Made by a program: the position numbers and the translations under genes. Below, piece after piece: positions 45,974 to 57,850 of a stretch of DNA of 64,000 bases (within the stretch, counting starts at the first letter, position 1; each line of letters begins with the position of its first letter). Where the stretch lies: contig QHBK01000003.1 of NCBI GenBank assembly GCA_003244105.1, positions 224,396-288,395 of the forward strand, in the 5' to 3' direction. Origin of the DNA: Candidatus Eremiobacter antarcticus. GTDB lineage: Bacteria; Vulcanimicrobiota; Vulcanimicrobiia; Eremiobacterales; Eremiobacteraceae. A model generated the notes under the pieces. That model worked only from the letters and a program-made list of their open reading frames with translations. It did no database searches and was not told the DNA's origin.

Positions 45974-46027
45974 GTTAACCTTCCTTAATAGGACGTTAAT
46001 GGCCGCTTGAAGCCCGGGCGCTATGTT
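45974..46027 (+). promoter_or_regulatory. Pho box and promoter of pstS1
   Basis: Four direct repeats with 10-11 bp period: GTTAAC (45974), CTTAAT (45984), GTTAAT (45995) and a weaker CTTGAA (46006-46011). Exactly 10 bases follow before the -10 hexamer TATGTT (46022-46027). There is no -35 hexamer at the normal distance; the repeats occupy its place, as in PhoB-activated promoters. The predicted start of transcription is near 46034. Confidence 0.75.
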
Positions 46028-47241: not shown

Positions 47242-48228
47242 GTGGCAACGGAAAGCATCGAAATAGCCTCGCTTCCTCGCACCACGACGACAGCCGTTCG
47301 ACTAAGGGGCGCCCAGCTTGCGGACCGCTTGGTCGTTGGGTTTTTTGGTCTGGCGGCGTGGCTCGTGTTGCTGGTCGTGGCCGCCTTGTTCGTCACCCTT
47401 GCGATCGCTGCATGGCCGGCGATCAAAACCGTTGGGTGGCCAGCGCTACACAGCGCGTTGTGGGATCCGAACAACGGCAAGTTCGGCGTATTGTCGTTTG
47501 TCTTCGGCACGCTTGTGACATCGGGCATCGCCCTGCTCTTGGCCGGACCCGTCGGCATCGGCGCTGCCTTAGTCCTCGCCGAAGTCGCGCCGAAGCGACT
47601 GGCCGGTCCGGTCGCGATGTTGATAGAGTTGCTGGCAGCGGTGCCGAGCGTGGTGTTCGGCATCTGGGGCCTCTTCGTGCTGGCGCCGGTCATGCGCGGC
47701 GCGATCGAACCGGCGCTCGCGCGCACACTCGGATTTTTGCCGCTCTTCCAGGGATATTTCTTCGGCGTCGGCATTCTCACGGCGGGCGTGCTCCTCGCGA
47801 TCATGATTCTGCCGACCATCGCTGCCATCACGCGCGACATCTTCGAGGCGGTGCCGGCGCACCAGCGCGAAGGGATGTTGGCACTCGGAGCGACCAAGTG
47901 GGAGGTCTTGGCCCGCGCCGTCATACCGTACGCGCGTTCTGGGATCATCGGTGCGCTGGTGCTGGCACTCGGACGCGCCTTGGGGGAAGCGATAGCGGTC
48001 GCCATGGTGATCGGCAACAAACCGGCCATTTCCGCCTCGTTGTTTTCCCCGGGTTACAGCCTCGCGTCAGTGGTCGCGAACGAGTTCACGGAGGCGACCG
48101 GGCAACAGTATCTTGCGGTGCTGGTGGGCATCGGCTCGCTGCTCTTCGTTCTCAGCATGCTCGTGAACGTCGCAGCGCGACTGCTCGTCTGGAGCGTGGG
48201 ACGTTCTCAGAGCGCTGCCCGTGCGTGA
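47242..48228 (+). CDS. pstC: Phosphate ABC transporter permease PstC (first copy)
   Basis: A 328-residue inner-membrane permease with six core helices of the MetI fold. The coupling-loop (EAA) motif is QREGMLALGATKWEVLARAVIPYARSGI in the usual place (seen between helices 4 and 5), followed by LGRALGEAIAVAMVIGN. It starts at GTG 47242. pstA1 overlaps by 8 bases. Confidence 0.95.
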   Translation: MATESIEIASLPRTTTTAVRLRGAQLADRLVVGFFGLAAWLVLLVVAALFVTLAIAAWPAIKTVGWPALHSALWDPNNGKFGVLSFVFGTLVTSGIALLLAGPVGIGAALVLAEVAPKRLAGPVAMLIELLAAVPSVVFGIWGLFVLAPVMRGAIEPALARTLGFLPLFQGYFFGVGILTAGVLLAIMILPTIAAITRDIFEAVPAHQREGMLALGATKWEVLARAVIPYARSGIIGALVLALGRALGEAIAVAMVIGNKPAISASLFSPGYSLASVVANEFTEATGQQYLAVLVGIGSLLFVLSMLVNVAARLLVWSVGRSQSAARA

Positions 48229-49108
48229 GGCCGCGGTGCTCGCGCGCATGAAGCGCCCGCTCTCAGGCGTGAGGACGCTGCGATCCCGGCAGTCGTGGAG
48301 CACCTTTATGATCGCGGTGGCCTGGCTGTGTGCCGGCCTTGCGGCTGCGCTGCTCGCGCTGATCGTGCTCTATGCCATCCGCAGAGGCGCCGCGGCGTTG
48401 AACCTGCAGTTCTTCACCCATCTCCCCTTGCCGGTGGGCATAGCGGGAGGCGGCGTAGCCAACGCCCTGATCGGATCGGTCGAGATCGTGCTCATGGCCT
48501 CGCTGTTCGCAATGCCGGTCGGCATATTCGCGGGCATTTATTTGGGGCTGTTAGGTCGCGGAAAGCTTGCCTATTCGGTGAGGTTCCTGAGCGACGTCCT
48601 CACAGGCGTGCCTTCCATCGCGATCGGTGTCTTCGCATACACGATCATCGTGGTGCCGACGCGGCATTTCTCGGCGATTTCCGCTGCAGTGGCGCTAGCG
48701 ATCATCATGTTGCCCATCGTCGTTCGCACCACCGAAGAGGCCGTGCGGCTGGTGCCCGCTGCGATTCCCGAGGGTGCTTTGGCCTTGGGCATCCCGACAT
48801 ACAAGGCGATCCTGTTGGTGACCGTTCCGGTTGCCAGGGCCGGGATCGTGACCGGCGCGCTCTTATCGGTCGCGCGAGTCGCCGGCGAGTCGGCGCCATT
48901 GCTGTTCACGGCGTTCGGCAGCTCTTTTTGGAGTCCGAACCCGAACACCCCGACGTCCGCCCTACCGCTTTTGATCTTCCAGTATGCGAATTCACCCTAT
49001 CGCGATTGGCAGCAGCTCGCCTGGGGCGGTGCCCTGTCGCTGATCGTCCTGATCTTCGCGATCAACATCACGGCGCGCTTGATGTTCCGGCGGATGGCCG
49101 TCCGGTGA
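48221..49108 (+). CDS. pstA: Phosphate ABC transporter permease PstA (first copy)
   Basis: A 295-residue partner permease. Landmarks: [32 protein letters not shown] region, [58 protein letters not shown] (EAA loop, read in segments), and [15 protein letters not shown]. It overlaps pstC1 at its start and pstB1 at its end, so C1, A1 and B1 are translationally coupled. Confidence 0.95.
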
Positions 49109-49905
49109 TAGCCGGGCGGACGCTTTCCGCCGAAAAGACGTTGCAGACGGAGCATCTCACCGCGTACTACGGCTCGGTCTGCGCGCTCAAGGACGTCTCG
49201 ATGCGATTCGAAGCAGGCGCAATCACCGCGCTGATCGGGCCTTCAGGCTGCGGGAAGTCCACGCTGCTGCGATGCCTCAATCGCATGCACGAGATCATCC
49301 CCGGAACGCGCGTCGAAGGCGAAGTGCGGCTCGACGGCAAGAACCTGTACGATCCAGCCATCAACGCGACCGAGATGCGTCAGCGGATCGGCATGGTCTT
49401 CCAACGACCCAATCCGTTCCCCACGATGTCCATCGTGGATAACGTGCTAGCCGGCGTTCGGCTAACCAACAAACTGCGGGATCGGACGCAACTCCAAGAG
49501 CTGGCCGAACAGAGCCTGCGCAAGGCAGCCCTGTGGGACGAGGTGAAAGACCAACTGCACCGCTCGGGCACATCGCTCTCCGGAGGCCAACAGCAACGCT
49601 TGTGCATCGCGCGGGCGCTCGCGGTCGAGCCGGAGGTTCTTCTGATGGACGAGCCAGCGTCGTCCCTGGATCCCATATCGACCACCAAGATCGAAGACCT
49701 GATGCGGGAGCTGAAGGGAGACTACACGTTCGTCATCGTCACGCACAATATGCAGCAGGCGGCGCGAGTTTCTGATTACACCGGCTTTCTACTCGCCGAG
49801 GAGTCAACGCCCGGCCATCTCATCGAGTTCGGCACATCATCCAAGATCTTCACCACACCCAAGGACAAGCGGACAGAAGACTATATCACCGGCCGATTTG
49901 GCTAA
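49105..49905 (+). CDS. pstB: Phosphate ABC transporter ATP-binding protein PstB (first, intact copy)
   Basis: A 266-residue ATPase with all catalytic motifs intact: Walker A G45-PSGCGK-S52, Q-loop Q100 ([11 protein letters not shown]), signature LSGGQQQRL at 148-156, Walker B with catalytic D182-E183 ([13 protein letters not shown]), and H-loop H214 ([11 protein letters not shown]). The start is GTG 49105, overlapping the pstA1 stop. It serves as the internal reference for the degenerate second copy at 54466-55284. Confidence 0.96.
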
Positions 49906-49949: not shown

Positions 49950-51050
49950 ATGCGTCCTCTGAGATTTCCAGCGGCCATTCTGATCGTGTGTGCGCTGCTG
50001 ACGGCATGCTCGAATCAGGCTCGAGAGGAACGATCCGGGCCCGCTGGCGCCCAGAGGGGCTTGAACGGGCCGAACGCATCGTCGGCAAACCTGATGCTGG
50101 TGGGCGCCGGATCTACGTTCGATTATCCTTTCTTCTCGCGAGCATTTTTTGAGTACAACAAACTCCATCCGAACGTCGCCGTGAATTATCAATCCATCGG
50201 TTCAGGCGGCGGCATACGGCAGTTCTCTTCGCGCACCGTCGATTTCGGGGCGACCGACGTACCAATGTCCGCCAAAGAGCTGGCGGCGATCCCGAAGGAC
50301 CGGCCGGTTATTCAGATCCCCATCGCCCTTGGTGGCGTCGTCATCGCGTTCAACATCCCGGATGGGCCGACGCATCTAAATCTCACCCCGTCGCTCGTCG
50401 CTGACATCTTCTTGGGTAAGATCACGGACTGGAGCGACCCGAAAATCGCCCGCGTCAATGGCGGAGCAGCGCAGAAACCGCTGCGGATCACCGTCGTGCA
50501 CCGCGCCGACGGGAGCGGCACGACCTACGTGTGCACCGACTACTTGAGCGCAGTAAGCCCTGAGTGGAAGAATTCCGTCGGTAAAGGAAAGAGCGTGAAC
50601 TGGTCCGCGCCGTCATCCGTCGGAGCCAAGGGCAATGAAGGCGTTGCCGGACAGATCCGCAACACTCCCGGCGCGATCGGCTATATCGAGCTTGCGTACG
50701 CGCTCCAGAACGACATCCAATACGCCGCCGTCGGCAACGCTGCAGGGAAGTTCGTGCTGCCAAGTTTCGGCTCCATCGCCGCAGCGGCGGCGGCGAAGAA
50801 AAATGTGTCGCCGAGCGATTTTTCCATCGTCAACGCGCCTGGAGATCAGGCATACCCGATCGCGGGGTTCTCATGGGTTCTGCTGTATCAGCGATATCCT
50901 GACGCGCAGAAGGCGAGCGCCCTTCGCGATCTCTTCCACTGGCTGCTCAGCGACGGCCAGCAGCTGGCCAAGAGCGTCAACTACGTACCGCTTCCACCGG
51001 CCGTCACGGCGCCGGCTCTCTCTACCGTCGCCAAGCTGGGGAAGACATAG
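49950..51050 (+). CDS. Phosphate-binding lipoprotein PstS (second copy)
   Basis: A 366-residue PstS with a perfect lipobox (LTAC, Cys20), so it is membrane-anchored, unlike the first copy. The body is clearly paralogous to PstS1: GAGSTFDYPFFSRAFFEY, IGSGGGIRQF, VDFGATDVPM, HRADGSGTTYVCTDYLS and VGAKGNEGVAGQIR. It sits 44 bases after pstB1 without its own Pho box or terminator before it, so it is probably the last gene of the first pst transcript. It could also serve the second permease set. Confidence 0.92.
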   Translation: MRPLRFPAAILIVCALLTACSNQAREERSGPAGAQRGLNGPNASSANLMLVGAGSTFDYPFFSRAFFEYNKLHPNVAVNYQSIGSGGGIRQFSSRTVDFGATDVPMSAKELAAIPKDRPVIQIPIALGGVVIAFNIPDGPTHLNLTPSLVADIFLGKITDWSDPKIARVNGGAAQKPLRITVVHRADGSGTTYVCTDYLSAVSPEWKNSVGKGKSVNWSAPSSVGAKGNEGVAGQIRNTPGAIGYIELAYALQNDIQYAAVGNAAGKFVLPSFGSIAAAAAAKKNVSPSDFSIVNAPGDQAYPIAGFSWVLLYQRYPDAQKASALRDLFHWLLSDGQQLAKSVNYVPLPPAVTAPALSTVAKLGKT

Positions 51051-51404: not shown

Positions 51405-51458
51405 CTTAATTAAAGTTAATGCGGACTTAACCGCCGGTTGAACTCGCGCGGCGATACT
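51405..51458 (+). promoter_or_regulatory. Pho box and promoter of the porin / pst2 unit
   Basis: Four direct repeats: CTTAAT (51405), GTTAAT (51415), CTTAAC (51426) and GTTGAA (51437-51442), spaced 10, 11 and 11 bp. Ten bases later is a -10-like GATACT (51453-51458). The series of spacings and the weak fourth repeat copy the pstS1 box exactly. The predicted transcript starts near 51465. Confidence 0.75.
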
Positions 51459-51525
51459 TAGGGCTAGGGTGCACACGACACCAGATCGCCTGGCGTCGAA
51501 ATGCTGCATCGACCATGAGGTGCCC

Positions 51526-52758
51526 TTGAAGTTCTTATGCCTTTTCATCACGGTGTTCGCTGCCATGGGCGCCGTTCGCGGTGACGCCGCGCCCGCTACC
51601 AAAGCGAAGCACGCGTCCAAAATCATCTACTATGGCAATATCCGTTCGTTCTATCACACGCGAAGCTTTCAAAAGGGAACGAATCAGTACGCCTTCTCAC
51701 TCGGCGGCAATTTCCACGTCGAAGGGGACCTCTTCCAAAATTTCGGCGCCGGACTGACCTATGGATCTGCGAATCCGCTCGGTTCCCAGGATCCTAATCC
51801 GAAAAAACGAGACACCTCGCTGTCGCAGTTCGCCGGCCCGGTGAGCGTGCTGGAAGAAGCATATGGCCAGTACCACACGCCGTTCGTTTCGCTGCGGGTG
51901 GGGCGCCAAATCATCAAAACTCCGTGGGCGCACGCATCAGATTCCCGCATCATACCCAACGCATTCCAGGGTGTGAGCGCCAGCGCGAAGGCGTCAAGCA
52001 GCCTTACGTTCTTCGTCGACCGCATGGTGAGATTCAAAAGCAGGCCGAGCGCGACGTTCGATGCCAACGACCTGCTTTCCAATAAGTTCACACGCGGCGT
52101 GTTAGCAGCCGGCGCCGTGTACAGCCAGCCTCGGTTCGCTGCGCAAGCGTGGTATTATGATTTTTATGACACCGCCCGCATGGGGTATGTGGACGCTATC
52201 GAGAGATTTCAACTGAAGAGCAAATACCATCCCTTTGTGGCGGCGCAGTACGTCGCTGAAGCGGGCGACACGCATCGTCTTTCGGCAAACGTGAACGCGC
52301 ACGGATATGGCGTGAACGTCGGAGTCGCAAACGACCGCGGCGATCTGTCGCTTTCTTACAATAACGTTCCGTTCAGGAACAAAGCGTTCAACAGCGGCGG
52401 CATCGCCTCGCCCTACACCTTTTCGGACACCGATCCGCTTTATACGACCTCCACCGGCACCGGCCTTATCGACAAGGGAGCGGGCCACGCGTACCGGGGG
52501 GCCGTCACGGTTTGGTCGTATCACAACAAATTTCGCGCTATCGCCAGTCGCGCCGAGTACTACTTGTACAGCCCCGCCACCGCGCCCAACAATCACGTGC
52601 TGGCGACCAACCTGGATGTCACCTACTTCTTAGGCAACGGCAAGAAGGGCGATGCATTCCACGGGTTTTCACTGCGGGATCGATGGATCGACATCGATAC
52701 TCCGGGCTCGCCGCTCACGTTCATCAACAATCGGGCGCAGCTCGAATACGACTTTTGA
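51526..52758 (+). CDS. Outer-membrane porin induced with the Pho regulon
   Basis: A 410-residue protein with a signal peptide (LKFLCLFITVFAAMGAVRGDAA) and a mature part of alternating amphipathic strands with many aromatic residues, ending in the outer-membrane C-terminal Phe (LEYDF). General shape and segments such as NFGAGLTYGSANPLG, PFVSLRVGRQIIKTPWA and WYYDFYDTARMGYV resemble OprD-like porins. By promoter and context it likely admits phosphate or phosphate esters. TTG 51526 (GAGG at 51517-51520) is preferred because it places the signal peptide at the N terminus; GTG 51520 is nearly equivalent. Confidence 0.75.
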   Translation: MKFLCLFITVFAAMGAVRGDAAPATKAKHASKIIYYGNIRSFYHTRSFQKGTNQYAFSLGGNFHVEGDLFQNFGAGLTYGSANPLGSQDPNPKKRDTSLSQFAGPVSVLEEAYGQYHTPFVSLRVGRQIIKTPWAHASDSRIIPNAFQGVSASAKASSSLTFFVDRMVRFKSRPSATFDANDLLSNKFTRGVLAAGAVYSQPRFAAQAWYYDFYDTARMGYVDAIERFQLKSKYHPFVAAQYVAEAGDTHRLSANVNAHGYGVNVGVANDRGDLSLSYNNVPFRNKAFNSGGIASPYTFSDTDPLYTTSTGTGLIDKGAGHAYRGAVTVWSYHNKFRAIASRAEYYLYSPATAPNNHVLATNLDVTYFLGNGKKGDAFHGFSLRDRWIDIDTPGSPLTFINNRAQLEYDF

Positions 52759-52805: not shown

Positions 52806-53621
52806 ATGGACGGCATGCGCCCCTTCGTCGAAGGGCTTTTCATCGCGGCAGCGAGGGTATGCGGTTTCGTCGCCTGCTTCTTGCCGCTGGCCCTTTTGGC
52901 CGCCATCGTTGCGGCGCTGCTGTCGGCGGGTTGGAGCGTCGCACCGGGCGCTTCCGTCGCGGGATTGCTTGCCCCGCTTGTGGTGACGCTGGGCCTGGCA
53001 GTTGTGGGCGGCCTGGTGGGAGCGACAGCCGGCGCGGGAACCGCCCTGTTCGCGCACGAGCTCGTAACCGGCGTACCTGCCAAAGCAGCACGAATCGCGC
53101 CCCGCTTCGCGGCCGCTGTTCCCGCCGTGGTCGTAGGCTGGCTTGCGGCAGCCATCGTGCTGCCGGTTGTCGCGGCGCGCAGCTTTGTGGCGGTGATGGT
53201 GGTGGCGGGAACCGTCGTGGCGCTTTGCGTGGCGGCACGGTCATACTCGCTCACAGTGCGGGCCTTAAAAGCGTTGCCGGCCTCCCTGCGCGAGGCCGCG
53301 CTCGCGCTGGGCGCAGACGCTACGCGTCTCACGTCACAGGTGATTGTGCCGGCCACGCGACGGCGCCTCTTCGGCATCTACATCGACGCGGTGTCGCGCG
53401 GCCTGGGAGAAGCGACGGCGCTGAGCATCGTCTTCGCGAGCGCCGTGCGCATGGGTTACGACTTGAAGGCGTTTTCTATTCCCGCGCAGATGCTGACGCA
53501 CGCCCGCATCGGCCAGACCTTTGACTCGGGGCTCGCGCTGTCCGCGTTGTTCGTCTTCGCGCTGTGCGCATGCACCCGGGTTTGGGCCGGGCGCCTTATC
53601 GGACGATTCGAATGGGCGTAG
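52806..53621 (+). CDS. PstC-like permease (second, divergent copy)
   Basis: A 271-residue permease of the MetI fold, shorter than PstC1 (328). The EAA coupling loop is recognisable (LREAALALGADATRLTSQVIVPATRR), as is RGLGEATALSIVFASA in place of RALGEAIAVAMVIGN. The membrane helices are unusually Ala/Val-rich and the substrate-facing residues have drifted. It is in line with the porin gene (47 bases apart), so it probably shares the Pho promoter. Likely assembles with the next two gene products. Confidence 0.75.
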   Translation: MDGMRPFVEGLFIAAARVCGFVACFLPLALLAAIVAALLSAGWSVAPGASVAGLLAPLVVTLGLAVVGGLVGATAGAGTALFAHELVTGVPAKAARIAPRFAAAVPAVVVGWLAAAIVLPVVAARSFVAVMVVAGTVVALCVAARSYSLTVRALKALPASLREAALALGADATRLTSQVIVPATRRRLFGIYIDAVSRGLGEATALSIVFASAVRMGYDLKAFSIPAQMLTHARIGQTFDSGLALSALFVFALCACTRVWAGRLIGRFEWA

Positions 53622-54469
53622 CTTTGCTGCCGGCGAACGGCGGCAAGGCGCAAGAGGCCGCTGGTTTCTTCGGCCGGCTTCCGATACTCGGAGCTTGCTT
53701 CGCCTCTGTGCTAGCCGCGCTCATCGCCTTGGGATTTGCGGCGGCTCTCATCGCGGTGGGCTGGAAATACGTGCCCGCGGCGTTGACTGCGTCGGTGCCG
53801 CAAGGGGCCGCTGCCGCGATCTGGATAAGCCTTGTTCTCGTGGTGTTGACCATGCCCGCCACGCTTGCGATCGCGGTGCTCGCCGCAGCCTGCGCTTGGG
53901 ACATCAACATCGGCGGCACCGTCGGGAGGACGTTGCGAGGCTGGTTGGTCTTCTCGACGTCCGTGCCGGCCGTCGTCGTGGGCGCCACAGTGTTTCTTCT
54001 CTGCGCAATGCTCGGTTTGCGCGTTGGTATTTGGACGGCGCTGGCGGCCGTGGTAGCGCTCAACGTCCCGCGGACAACCGCTCGAATAGTGCGCATGTTG
54101 GGGTACATTCCGGCCCAGACGATAGACGCGACCGCTGCGGCCGGCGCCGCGCCGGCCTTCGCGTTTTTCGCGGTCGCACTGCGCACGATACGCCGTCCGC
54201 TGGCAGCTTTGGCGCTCGCCCTCTGTGCGCAATTGCTCGGACAAGCCGCGGTTATCGTGTTGGCAGGAGGCCTTACGGGCGACCAGCCGTTGGCCGTCCA
54301 GATATGGAAGTTCGCCCCCGACGTGCGACTTGCGGGGTTTCAAGGCGCCCAATCGCTCTTGCTGGTCGCTGCTTGCGGCTTCTTCGTCGCCGCCTCCGGT
54401 GCCGTGAGCAGCTACAGGCCGCGTCGCCGCATCTCCGCGGCTCGGGCATCGCTCGGGGTGGGCACGTGA
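53612..54469 (+). CDS. PstA-like permease (second, highly divergent copy)
   Basis: A 285-residue protein with about six membrane helices. Remnants of PstA include FSTSVPAVVVGATVF (for the [14 protein letters not shown] region) and LGQAAVIVLAGGL (for the [10 protein letters not shown] region). The EAA loop is almost erased (IDATAAAGAAPAFAFFAVALRT, no conserved E-A-A-x-A-L-G). ATG 53612 overlaps the preceding gene by 10 bases; an upstream in-frame start at 53564 is possible. The stop overlaps the ATPase GTG. Confidence 0.65.
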   Translation: MGVALLPANGGKAQEAAGFFGRLPILGACFASVLAALIALGFAAALIAVGWKYVPAALTASVPQGAAAAIWISLVLVVLTMPATLAIAVLAAACAWDINIGGTVGRTLRGWLVFSTSVPAVVVGATVFLLCAMLGLRVGIWTALAAVVALNVPRTTARIVRMLGYIPAQTIDATAAAGAAPAFAFFAVALRTIRRPLAALALALCAQLLGQAAVIVLAGGLTGDQPLAVQIWKFAPDVRLAGFQGAQSLLLVAACGFFVAASGAVSSYRPRRRISAARASLGVGT

Positions 54470-55284
54470 GAGAGTCTATCCGGTCTCCCGGGATGCCCCA
54501 GAGCCGAAACCCGCTGGTCGAAACCAAGCTCGAGACGGACCGGCTTCACGTCCGGTACGGGCAGACGCACGCCCTCAAGGGAGTCAACCTCTCGGTCGTG
54601 GCGGGGACGACATTGGCCATCATTGGCGCCGGTGCCAGCGGCAAAACAACGCTGCTGCGATGCTTCAATAGACTCCACGATCTGGATCCATCCGTGCGGG
54701 TGGAGGGCAGCGTCAAGCTGGACGGCGCGGAGGTTCTGGGCCCGCGAGTGGATGTGCGGTCCCTGCGCCGGCGAGTGGGGATGATCTTCACCCAACCCAC
54801 GGTGCTGCCCGGCTCGGTCTTCGACAACGTGGCCTTCGGGCTGCGCGCCAAAGGCGTCCGTTCCCAAGCGGAACTCGAAGAGAGATGCCGGGCCGCCCTG
54901 CAGCGGGCGATGCTATGGGACCGTGTTTCTTCCATGCTGCGAAACCCGGCCCCTGAACTTCCGCGCGAGCTCCTACAGCATCTCTGCGTCGCGCGCGTGC
55001 TGGCGCTCGACCCGGAGGTGCTGCTGCTGGACGACCCGACGGCGTCGCTCGATCCCGTGTCCGGACTGGCGCTCGAAGAGACCATTCTCGCGCTGCGCCG
55101 AGACCACACCGTCGTCTTGGCGACCAATAATCTGGAGCAAGCCGCACGCTTGTCGGACGCTACGTGTTATGTCGCGAACGGTGAAGTCGTCGAGACCGGT
55201 GAAACTCCGCACGTGTTCAACAGGCCGACGGACACCCGCACCGAGGATTTTCTTGCCGGCCGCTCTTCAAACTTGCCCACGTGA
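54466..55284 (+). CDS. PstB-like ATPase with degenerate catalytic motifs (second copy)
   Basis: A 272-residue protein aligning along its length with PstB1. Walker A is kept (G54-AGASGK-T61). The Q-loop Gln is Thr109 (GMIFTQPTVLP), the LSGGQ signature is LPREL (165-169), the Walker B catalytic Glu is Asp190 (VLLLDDPTASLDP) and the H-loop His is Asn221 (LATNNLEQAAR). The D-loop SLDP is intact. Such a set of losses predicts ATP binding with little or no hydrolysis. The frame is uninterrupted and codon use is like its neighbours, so it is maintained and is not a pseudogene. Starts at GTG 54466 or ATG 54493. Confidence 0.85.
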   Translation: MRESIRSPGMPQSRNPLVETKLETDRLHVRYGQTHALKGVNLSVVAGTTLAIIGAGASGKTTLLRCFNRLHDLDPSVRVEGSVKLDGAEVLGPRVDVRSLRRRVGMIFTQPTVLPGSVFDNVAFGLRAKGVRSQAELEERCRAALQRAMLWDRVSSMLRNPAPELPRELLQHLCVARVLALDPEVLLLDDPTASLDPVSGLALEETILALRRDHTVVLATNNLEQAARLSDATCYVANGEVVETGETPHVFNRPTDTRTEDFLAGRSSNLPT

Positions 55285-55294
55285 GGACGGCGTC

Positions 55295-56695
55295 ATGAGG
55301 CTGCAGACGGGGCCGGCATCCGCTCATAGCGCGGCACCCAAAGACATGACCTACAGCGCGAGCGCGCTCGACGTCATCGGTTGGACTCCGCTCGTGCGTT
55401 TGAACCGCGTCATGGACGGGGCACGCTGCACGGTGCTCGCGAAACTGGAATTCCTCAACCCGGGAGGCTCCGTCAAGGACCGGCCTGCGCTCGCCATGAT
55501 CCGCGATGCGGAGGCGCGCGGACTGTTGAGGCCCGGCGGCACCATCGTGGAGGCGACCTCCGGTAATACGGGCACCGGCTTGGCGATGGTCGCCGCCATC
55601 AAGCGCTACCGCTGCATCCTTGTGATGCCCGATAAAGTGAGCGAAGAGAAGGTTCGTCTGCTGCGCGCGTACGGCGCCGAGGTGGTGATCACCCCGACCA
55701 AAGCGCCGGCGAGCAGCGCCGAGTCCTACTACGGCGTGGCCGCCAGACTTGCAAGCGAGATTCCCGGGGCTTTCCAGCCCAATCAGTTCGCGAATCTGCT
55801 CAACCCCAAAGCGCATGAGGAATCGACCGGACCGGAGATCTGGGAGCAGACGGCGGGCAAGATCACGCACTTCGTCAGTGGCATCGGCACCGGCGGCACG
55901 ATTTCCGGAGTCTCCCATTTTCTGAAGAGACAGAACGCCGCCGTCACCGTGATCGGCGCCGACCCGGAGGGATCGATTTACTCGGGCGACACGGCCAAAT
56001 CGTACAAGGTGGAGGGGATCGGTGAGGATTTTCTGCCCGCGACGGTCGACCTGAAAGCGATCGATCAGATCGAACGAGTCTCGGACAAAGAATCCTTTCT
56101 CATGACCCGCCGCATCTGCCGGGAGGAAGGTCTGCTGGCGGGAGGATCATCAGGCACCGCTGTGGTCGCGGCGAACCGCGCCGCGCGGACGCTCCCCGCT
56201 GAGGCGATCATGGTGGTGCTCCTGCCGGACAACGGGCGCGGCTATCTGACGAAGATCTTCAACGACGAATGGATGCGCACGAATGGTTTTCTGGGCGAGG
56301 TGGGCCTGGCGGCCACGGTCGGAGACGTCGTGCGCGCCAAAGGAGAGCTGCCCAAACTCATCACCCTCACGGCCGCCGACACCGTACGGCGCGCCGTCGA
56401 GCTCATGCGCGAGTTTCAGATCTCGCAAATACCGGTGATGCAGGACGGCGAGATGGTGGGCAGCGTCAATGAGGTGGCGGTGATGCAGCTCATCTACGAC
56501 CGCGCGGACATCGTCCACGCTGAGGTCAAGGACGTCATGGGCCGGCCGTTCCCGCTGCTCGACGAACGAGAAGAAGTAGACAGAGCCTACAAGCAATTAT
56601 CGTTGGGCCACGCGGCGGTGGTCGTCGGCCACGAGGGCAAGCCGATCGGGCTGCTCACCAAGATGGATATCATCAACTACCTATCTGCCACCTAG
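55295..56695 (+). CDS. Cystathionine beta-synthase with C-terminal CBS pair
   Basis: A 466-residue protein: a PLP fold-type II catalytic domain (about 20-335) with PLP lysine K61 (GGSVKDRPAL), phosphate-binding loop GIGTGGTISG, and ATSGNTGTGLA; then two CBS modules (about 345-466) with the repeated patterns ISQIPVMQDGEMVGSVNE and GHAAVVVGHEGKPIGLLTKMDI. It condenses serine (or O-acetylserine) with homocysteine to cystathionine. The CBS pair may bind an adenosyl ligand. Start ATG 55295; ATG 55346 is a possible shorter start. Followed by the gamma-lyase gene after nine bases. Confidence 0.92.
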   Translation: MRLQTGPASAHSAAPKDMTYSASALDVIGWTPLVRLNRVMDGARCTVLAKLEFLNPGGSVKDRPALAMIRDAEARGLLRPGGTIVEATSGNTGTGLAMVAAIKRYRCILVMPDKVSEEKVRLLRAYGAEVVITPTKAPASSAESYYGVAARLASEIPGAFQPNQFANLLNPKAHEESTGPEIWEQTAGKITHFVSGIGTGGTISGVSHFLKRQNAAVTVIGADPEGSIYSGDTAKSYKVEGIGEDFLPATVDLKAIDQIERVSDKESFLMTRRICREEGLLAGGSSGTAVVAANRAARTLPAEAIMVVLLPDNGRGYLTKIFNDEWMRTNGFLGEVGLAATVGDVVRAKGELPKLITLTAADTVRRAVELMREFQISQIPVMQDGEMVGSVNEVAVMQLIYDRADIVHAEVKDVMGRPFPLLDEREEVDRAYKQLSLGHAAVVVGHEGKPIGLLTKMDIINYLSAT

Positions 56696-56704
56696 ACGAG
56701 CGCG

Positions 56705-57850
56705 ATGGAATTTTCGACAAAAGCGATTCATGTCGGTCAAGAAGCCGATCCGAGCACCGGTGCGACCATCGTTCCCATTTTTGCGACCTCCACGTACACA
56801 CAGACTTCCCCGGGCGTGCATGTGGGCTTCGATTACTCCCGCACGGCGAACCCCACCCGATTGGCGCTGGAACGCTGCCTTGCTTCCCTGGAGAACGCCA
56901 AATATGGGCTGTGCTTCGCGAGCGGCATGGCGGCGACTTCAGCCGTGCTCAATCTCTGCTCGGCGGGCGATCACGTCGTCGTCTCGGACGATCTCTACGG
57001 CGGCACGTTCCGGTTGTTCGACAAAGTGCTCGCACGATACGGCCTGACGTTCTCGTATGTCGACCAGAGCGACGTCCCAACCGTGGAGCGGGCACTGCAC
57101 GCTTCGACCCGCATGGTGTGGCTCGAATCGCCCACGAATCCGCTGCTGAAACTGGCGGACATCGAAGGCATCGCGAAGATGTGCCGCCGCCACGGCACGC
57201 TGCTGGCCGTGGACAACACCTTCGCCACTCCCTTTCTGCAAAACCCGCTCGATCTCGGCGCTGACCTGAGCGTGCACTCGACCACCAAATACATCAGCGG
57301 CCATTCTGACGTCGTCGGCGGTTTCGTGGCCACGAACAAAGACGCGCTGTACGAGATCGTCAAGTTCCACCAGAACGCGGTCGGTGCGATTCCCGGCCCG
57401 TTCGACTGCTTTCTCACGCTGCGAGGCGCGAAGACGCTTGCGCTGCGCATGCGCGAGCACGAACGCAACGCGCGCGCAGTGGCGGCATACCTGGACGGAC
57501 GGCCGGACATCGAGCGCGTGTACTACCCTGGGCTTGTGGGTCACCCGCAACACGATTTAGCTAAACGGCAAATGCGCGGTTTCGGCGGAATGGTCTCGTT
57601 CACGCCAACGGGCGGCGCACCTCGAGCGCGGGCCATCGCGCAGTCCACGACGGTCTTCTCGCTGGCGGAAAGCTTGGGCGGCGTTGAATCGCTTATCTGC
57701 CACCCGGTCTCGATGACGCACGGCTCGATCCCCAAGGAAATGCGCGAGTCGCGGGGTTTCAGCGACGCGCTGCTGCGGCTGTCTGTCGGGATCGAGGCGC
57801 AGGCGGACATCATCGCCGACCTGGAACAGGCGTTGGCCGCCACCAACTGA
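56705..57850 (+). CDS. Cystathionine gamma-lyase / gamma-synthase (Cys/Met metabolism PLP enzyme)
   Basis: A 381-residue fold-type I PLP enzyme of the trans-sulfuration family. It begins TKAIHVGQEADPSTGATIVPIF; YSRTANPTR and SGMAATSAVLNL bind PLP phosphate; the Schiff-base lysine is in HSTTKYISGHSDVVGG; the C terminus has RLSVGIE. Next to cystathionine beta-synthase the lyase direction (cystathionine to cysteine) is most likely, completing reverse transsulfuration. Sequence alone cannot exclude gamma-synthase. Confidence 0.9.
   Translation: MEFSTKAIHVGQEADPSTGATIVPIFATSTYTQTSPGVHVGFDYSRTANPTRLALERCLASLENAKYGLCFASGMAATSAVLNLCSAGDHVVVSDDLYGGTFRLFDKVLARYGLTFSYVDQSDVPTVERALHASTRMVWLESPTNPLLKLADIEGIAKMCRRHGTLLAVDNTFATPFLQNPLDLGADLSVHSTTKYISGHSDVVGGFVATNKDALYEIVKFHQNAVGAIPGPFDCFLTLRGAKTLALRMREHERNARAVAAYLDGRPDIERVYYPGLVGHPQHDLAKRQMRGFGGMVSFTPTGGAPRARAIAQSTTVFSLAESLGGVESLICHPVSMTHGSIPKEMRESRGFSDALLRLSVGIEAQADIIADLEQALAATN

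Follow-up and report, generated by a model that had tools for sequence, protein, structure and literature searches.

The window, a 64,000-nucleotide stretch of the Candidatus Eremiobacter antarcticus genome, carries beside a canonical Pst transporter a second Pst-like set whose ATPase subunit, PstB2, is very probably catalytically dead and functionally retained across its family. Taken as a whole, our observations are best explained by a transport-dead Pst complex that would be locked open and act as a Pho-signalling scaffold, a reading to which we give a probability of about 0.45. The locus runs from a phoB-type regulator through phoR, phoU, pstS1, pstC1, pstA1, pstB1 and pstS2 into the second unit, which consists of an OprD-type porin gene, pstC2, pstA2, pstB2 and the genes for cystathionine beta-synthase (with CBS domains) and cystathionine gamma-lyase, as follows.

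47242 to 49905, forward strand: pstC1-pstA1-pstB1, the first Pst set of this locus, intact and canonical (NCBIfam scores above cut-off)
49950 to 51050, forward strand: pstS2, a second PstS of the PstS1 type (TIGR00975, 347 bits)
51469 to 52758, forward strand: OprD-type porin, the gene that opens the second unit; its start codon is uncertain (Pfam PF03573, 35.7 bits)
52806 to 53621, forward strand: pstC2, a diverged PstC-like permease (TIGR02138, 53.5 bits; cut-off 196)
53612 to 54469, forward strand: pstA2, a strongly diverged PstA-like permease (no NCBIfam match; AlphaFold model)
54466 to 55284, forward strand: pstB2, a predicted PstB-fold pseudo-ATPase (TIGR00972, 260 bits; cut-off 343)
55295 to 57850, forward strand: cystathionine beta-synthase (CBS) and cystathionine gamma-lyase (CGL) (PALP and CBS domains; synteny)

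The translational coupling of pstC2, pstA2 and pstB2 that the sequence-only reading had proposed is borne out by start/stop overlaps, with the PstA2 ATG (53612) overlapping the PstC2 stop and the PstB2 start, in a GTGA at 54466, overlapping the PstA2 stop; 10 bases separate PstB2 from the start of the CBS gene. By family synteny, a pstS2 in this position is limited to the window genome and one other genus. PstB1 of the same window has canonical motifs, including THN, and scores 377 bits against TIGR00972, above the curated equivalog cut-off of 343 bits under which PstB2 falls. PstC2 is likewise below its family cut-off, and PstA2 does not reach that of TIGR00974. A Pho-type promoter had also been placed upstream of the second unit, and it is supported by a triple repeat shared with the region upstream of pstS1, both sites coming from a pattern search of the window.

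51415 to 51442, forward strand: Pho-box-like element, GTTAA/CTTAA/GTTGAA with 11-bp spacing, upstream of porin-pstC2-pstA2-pstB2
45984 to 46011, forward strand: Pho-box-like reference site of the same layout, upstream of pstS1

The triple repeat (TTAA/TTAA/TTGAA), a pattern composed after both sites had been viewed, occurs in the window only at these two places, with 0 expected in shuffles. [CG]TTAA repeats are also present upstream of pstS1 in several relatives, and such repeats at 11-bp spacing with TTGAA as the third unit are a candidate for the Pho box of the group.

None of LSGGQ, the Q-loop Gln, the catalytic Glu and the H-loop His is present in the window PstB2, which retains Walker A, the D-loop and the Walker B Asp. 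Numbered from the GTG start at 54466, all four losses stand at the positions and residue numbers first given for them.

54625 to 54648, forward strand: Walker A motif GAGASGKT, retained (alignment of PstB2 orthologues)
54790 to 54792, forward strand: Q-loop Gln replaced by Thr109 (Gln in 0/14 orthologues)
54958 to 54972, forward strand: signature LSGGQ replaced by Leu-Pro-Arg-Glu-Leu (LPREL, residues 165 to 169), second Gly position acidic (GG in 0/14)
55033 to 55035, forward strand: Walker B catalytic Glu replaced by Asp190 (Asp in 11/14)
55126 to 55128, forward strand: H-loop His replaced by Asn221 (Asn in 12/14)

These losses recur across the family of the window (relatives are titled Ca. 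Eremiobacterota), which was sampled with 14 genomes from nine genera. Whole-genome searches revealed a PstB2 orthologue in every one of them, the other 13 being 50-68% identical to that of the window. The Q-loop Gln and the GG of LSGGQ are gone from all 14 copies, the second Gly position being Asp or Glu in 13, and the H-loop His is gone from 13 (Asn in 12, Gly in one) and kept in one, with the catalytic Glu kept only in 3 genomes of a single genus. The Walker B Asp is present in 14/14, as is an Ala preceding Thr-Asn, and the Walker A Lys is present in 12/14, with Arg in two relatives of one genus. Because three relatives have the Walker B Glu and one the His, slow hydrolysis is conceivable in some, and because of the Lys-to-Arg change in two others ATP binding may not be universal. 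The C-terminal RTE-[D/A]-F-L-A-G-R stretch is retained, with Tyr-Ile changed to Phe-Leu in all 14. The substituted residues are conserved in their own right, as the H-loop Asn and the acidic second Gly position show. A strain-specific oddity or an assembly error is ruled out by the recurrence in 14/14 genomes, and no relative within the family has a full canonical motif set or a frameshift.

A set of 52 canonical PstBs, pre-filtered for an intact signature and H-loop, served as an alignment reference only. Of its 70 invariant columns, PstB2 keeps 42 (in at least 12/14 copies) and loses 13 (kept in at most 2), including Q98, P102, F103, G158, G159, V210 and H212 in the numbering of the aligned PstB1 segment. 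The named motifs are not significantly enriched among the lost invariant columns (7/13 lost vs 17/57 kept, Fisher p 0.12), since PstB2 still has its Walker A, its D-loop and the Walker B Asp. In an unfiltered census every PstB read from sister families has all motifs; the reading covered the best loci, and none of the sister-family PstBs fetched there shows degeneration extending more widely in the phylum. Canonical counterparts of PstB2 are confined to the sister family, where they are read as the ancestral state. The contig scan for degenerate PstBs relied on two PstB2-derived peptide patterns, which distant ones could escape.

In its AlphaFold model (pLDDT 94) the PstB fold of PstB2 is intact, the best PDB matches being E. 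coli PstB (9k3s_C and 9k3x_C), with an rmsd of 1.4 A to 9k3x_C; aligned by fold, PstB2 and E. coli PstB are 42% identical. The PstA2 model (pLDDT 80) has the BPD permease fold and finds its best matches among PstSCAB permease chains, more loosely (9k3x_A, rmsd 5.5 A). ABC motors without the Q-loop Gln, signature and His do not productively sandwich or hydrolyse ATP. The losses therefore strongly imply, from motifs, that the second Pst complex does not cycle, and the retained Walker A and Walker B Asp as strongly imply that PstB2 is still able to bind nucleotide.

Many ABC motors are heterodimers in which one site is degenerate, and the known cases keep one composite site intact. PstB2 might likewise be the degenerate half of a pair with PstB1, tuning the rate of the motor on the permeases of Pst1 or Pst2, an arrangement favored by the presence of both pstB genes in one locus and by the tandem PstB1 and PstB2 of E. 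faecalis, two paralogues of one pst locus with non-overlapping roles, though both of these are canonical and belong to one pst operon and one transporter (PMC12096839). However, with the signature missing from PstB2 together with the Walker B Glu and the H-loop His, both PstB1-PstB2 composite sites would be defective, and in 14/14 genomes PstB2 comes with a PstC2 and a PstA2 of its own, such that we consider a mixed dimer unlikely. Since no intact composite site would form with PstB1, the proposal that the second set works with another ATPase is also weakened. CFTR and heterodimeric exporters have in common with PstB2 the loss of the catalytic Glu and His and an acidic signature, as in G551D, but their partner half keeps an intact site, whereas none appears possible for PstB2 with either PstB1 or itself.

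Loss of the catalytic residues has not been followed by loss of the genes. The order pstC2-pstA2-pstB2-CBS is identical in 14/14 genomes, with the gamma-lyase gene next after CBS wherever the contig continues (past the contig end in one genome), and the block lies downstream of Pst1 wherever the contig shows Pst1. All three reading frames are open in every genome read. Among unsaturated pairs, dN/dS was 0.03-0.07 for pstB2, 0.08-0.11 for pstC2 and 0.06-0.18 for pstA2, compared to 0.02-0.08 for pstB1. The second Pst set evolves faster than the first, its permeases most of all (family mean identities of 0.34 for PstC2, 0.30 for PstA2 and 0.58 for PstB2, against 0.68 for PstC1, 0.70 for PstA1 and 0.77 for PstB1), and all three of its genes are under purifying selection. 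Synteny and low dN/dS thus confirm that the block is kept as a unit, and a pstB2 dN/dS as low as that of the catalytic PstB1 indicates that PstB2 is not decaying. A decaying remnant kept by chance or hitch-hiking would account for permeases that diverge quickly and for PstC2 and PstA2 scores below family cut-offs, but it is at odds with the open frames and constant gene order of all 14 genomes (nine genera) and with dN/dS of 0.03-0.18 in close pairs. Simple decay is rejected by these values and by the 14/14 retention; we hold a remnant to be extremely improbable, and among the four alternatives weighed here it is the only one that is firmly excluded.

Between Pst1 and pstC2, most genomes have zero to two variable genes for outer-membrane or secreted proteins (porin, TonB receptor, phosphoesterase, PstS2). 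In some relatives (L040 5288-10794, L042 and L048) the genes between the two Pst sets encode a phosphoesterase of 800 residues, part of which resembles a beta-propeller, a TonB receptor carrying a carboxypeptidase-like domain, or both. In two relatives pstC2 starts ~100 bases after pstB1, and there it may sit in the Pst1 operon. No PstS' was seen next to pstC2A2B2 in the family, and a PstS1-like PstS2 adjoins it in only two genera. On the other side of the block, the CBS-domain cystathionine beta-synthase and the cystathionine gamma-lyase that follow pstB2 in the family bring to mind a transporter with a changed substrate, perhaps linked to transsulfuration, that would run on slow hydrolysis with Asp as the base or on another ATPase; the sister-family CBS orthologues, by comparison, are on other contigs or far from pst. 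We find this improbable because most genomes have no binding protein of its own for the set, because the Q-loop Gln, signature and His are all lost together, and because the Pho-box-like element and the upstream pho and pst genes indicate phosphate.

The permeases show where the second set is most constrained. PstA2 had been described as having lost its EAA loop consensus, which holds for the Glu, absent from the loop of the window copy (IDATAAAGAAPAF), and not for the rest of the loop: one Ala and the Gly never vary among 14 relatives, and six relatives keep the Glu. The EAA Ala and Gly are invariant in both permeases and the Glu is variable, and the EAA-loop window ranks 9 of 249 for conservation in PstC2 and 3 of 262 in PstA2. 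Since these loops are among the best-conserved windows, docking of PstB2 onto its own permeases would seem to be retained, and the combination of fast-diverging permeases with better-kept PstB2 and EAA loops is what one would expect of a complex whose useful surface faces the cytosol, and speaks for a cytosolic role of the second set. The set might instead let phosphate or another anion through passively, by a gated or slow path that nucleotide binding would open without hydrolysis in a CFTR-like manner. This reading could draw on the porin, phosphoesterase, TonB receptor or second PstS often encoded just upstream, and on the Glu of the PstC2 GEA motif, present in 14/14. Yet the signature changes should prevent dimer closure, the Arg of ARxxGE is lost in most PstA2 copies and in 4/14 PstC2 copies, the permeases are the least conserved part, and a passive path would be of little use for uptake when cells are phosphate-starved, so that this reading, too, is unlikely.

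Phylogenetic placement indicates where such a set may have come from, with long branches leaving the tree positions less than certain. PstB2 forms one clade (support 100/100) on a long stem, and the PstC2 clade is confined to the family (226-307 bits vs <=117 elsewhere). PstC2 groups with the PstC' of the sister family (97/90) and PstA2 with its PstA' (100/96). A recent duplication of PstB1 as the source of PstB2 was rejected (p-AU 0.0013), as was a grouping of PstA2 with PstA1 (p-AU 0.005); groupings of PstC2 with PstC1 (p 0.135) and of PstB2 with the sister-family PstB, Ba (p 0.195), were not. That sister-family second set, PhoB-PhoR-PstS'-C'-A'-Ba (for example L057, L152-L161 and L166), shares the order C-A-B with the pseudo-Pst set and includes the nearest kin of its PstC and PstA, but it has all motifs canonical and PstS' present, and in many genomes Ba is the only PstB found. 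The simplest history is that a working Pst2 lost PstS' and the hydrolysis motifs once, in the family ancestor; the motifs were gone before the family radiated, and the closest relative of the set is a canonical second Pst transporter. Pst2, which includes an unusual PstS' (~41-55 bits against the PstS1 model), is the sole Pst set in many sister-family genomes, the records just named among them; it usually adjoins PhoB-PhoR, with PhoU elsewhere. Five other sister-family records (L051, L053, L054, L055 and L056) have two canonical PstB lineages per pst operon, one of the two directly after phoR or in tandem.

How Pst signals phosphate to PhoR has been an open question for decades; according to the leading idea, PhoR is informed by the conformation of the transporter and not by transport as such. 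A family in which a transport-dead Pst has been kept alongside a functional one would amount to a natural experiment by which this idea could be tested. The family also provides a clear instance of an importer retained as a whole complex, and not as half of one, although its motor has lost the motifs for hydrolysis. In a limited literature search (PstSCAB cryo-EM, ABC pseudo-ATPases, Eremiobacterota pstB) we found no such report, and prior publication is possible. Relative to PstSCAB (E. coli 9k3x, 9k3y and 9k3s), the second set has in common the PstB fold, the C-terminal RTED..GR motif, two BPD permeases and a Pho-linked locus, and it differs in its missing hydrolysis motifs, diverged permeases, sub-cut-off scores and, in most genomes, the lack of its own PstS.

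For the scaffold reading, we propose that PstC2A2B2 would be made under phosphate shortage, induced with the regulon. The acidic residue at the second signature Gly, in a protein without the Q-loop Gln and H-loop His, would block closure of the ATP-sandwich dimer, and the position corresponds to that of CFTR G551, the second Gly of LSGGQ. In CFTR the G551D change, signature Gly to Asp, severely impairs gating (PMC11920571). Unable to close, the complex would remain open and inward-facing, a non-cycling docking platform for PhoU-PhoR; PstB binds PhoU, and PhoU binds PhoR (PMC4423584). The platform would supply a constant "phosphate-replete" or damping input, as with E. coli PstB Q160K in the LSGGQ motif, which is without transport yet holds the Pho regulon low, a Pi-replete signal, where E179Q holds it high (PMC5775613). 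Signature damage is common to Q160K and PstB2, and no transport is expected from either, but Q160K is an artificial single change in the main transporter, whereas PstB2 belongs to a second set, and its several changes arose in nature and are conserved.

Granting catalytic loss with retention, a Pho-signalling scaffold comes close to even odds; a signalling role of the second complex taken by itself falls somewhat short of them. The phosphate/ATP sensor for PhoU-PhoR offered by the sequence-only reading is our best inference by analogy, helped by Q160K and by the fast-evolving permeases. Where found in family members, PhoU has a single locus per genome, so it would serve both Pst sets. The presence of PhoU is not linked to the pseudo-Pst set, being found in 110 of 117 genomes of the class, including those without it. 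More broadly, and only tentatively, the block may be a clade-wide natural phosphate receptor made from a whole ABC importer, its motor disarmed in the common ancestor and held open by the acidic signature change, so as to act as a Pho-induced signalling scaffold with sensing split from uptake.

Variant PstBs and the block itself also turned up in other records. Centralia_MAG_155 (L059), deposited as a Proteobacteria MAG, carries the block and is probably mislabelled. Records from other phyla (L079, L080 and L090) have PstB variants with LSEGQ in place of LSGGQ. An Oscillospiraceae MAG (L084, 3163-3924) encodes a PstB-like protein degenerate in the opposite way, with Walker A Lys changed to Thr, a Q-loop Glu, Walker B DRS and an intact LSGGQQQR, downstream of a second pstB fragment, pstS, pstC and pstA; this protein has the look of a degenerate partner in a heterodimer of PstBs.
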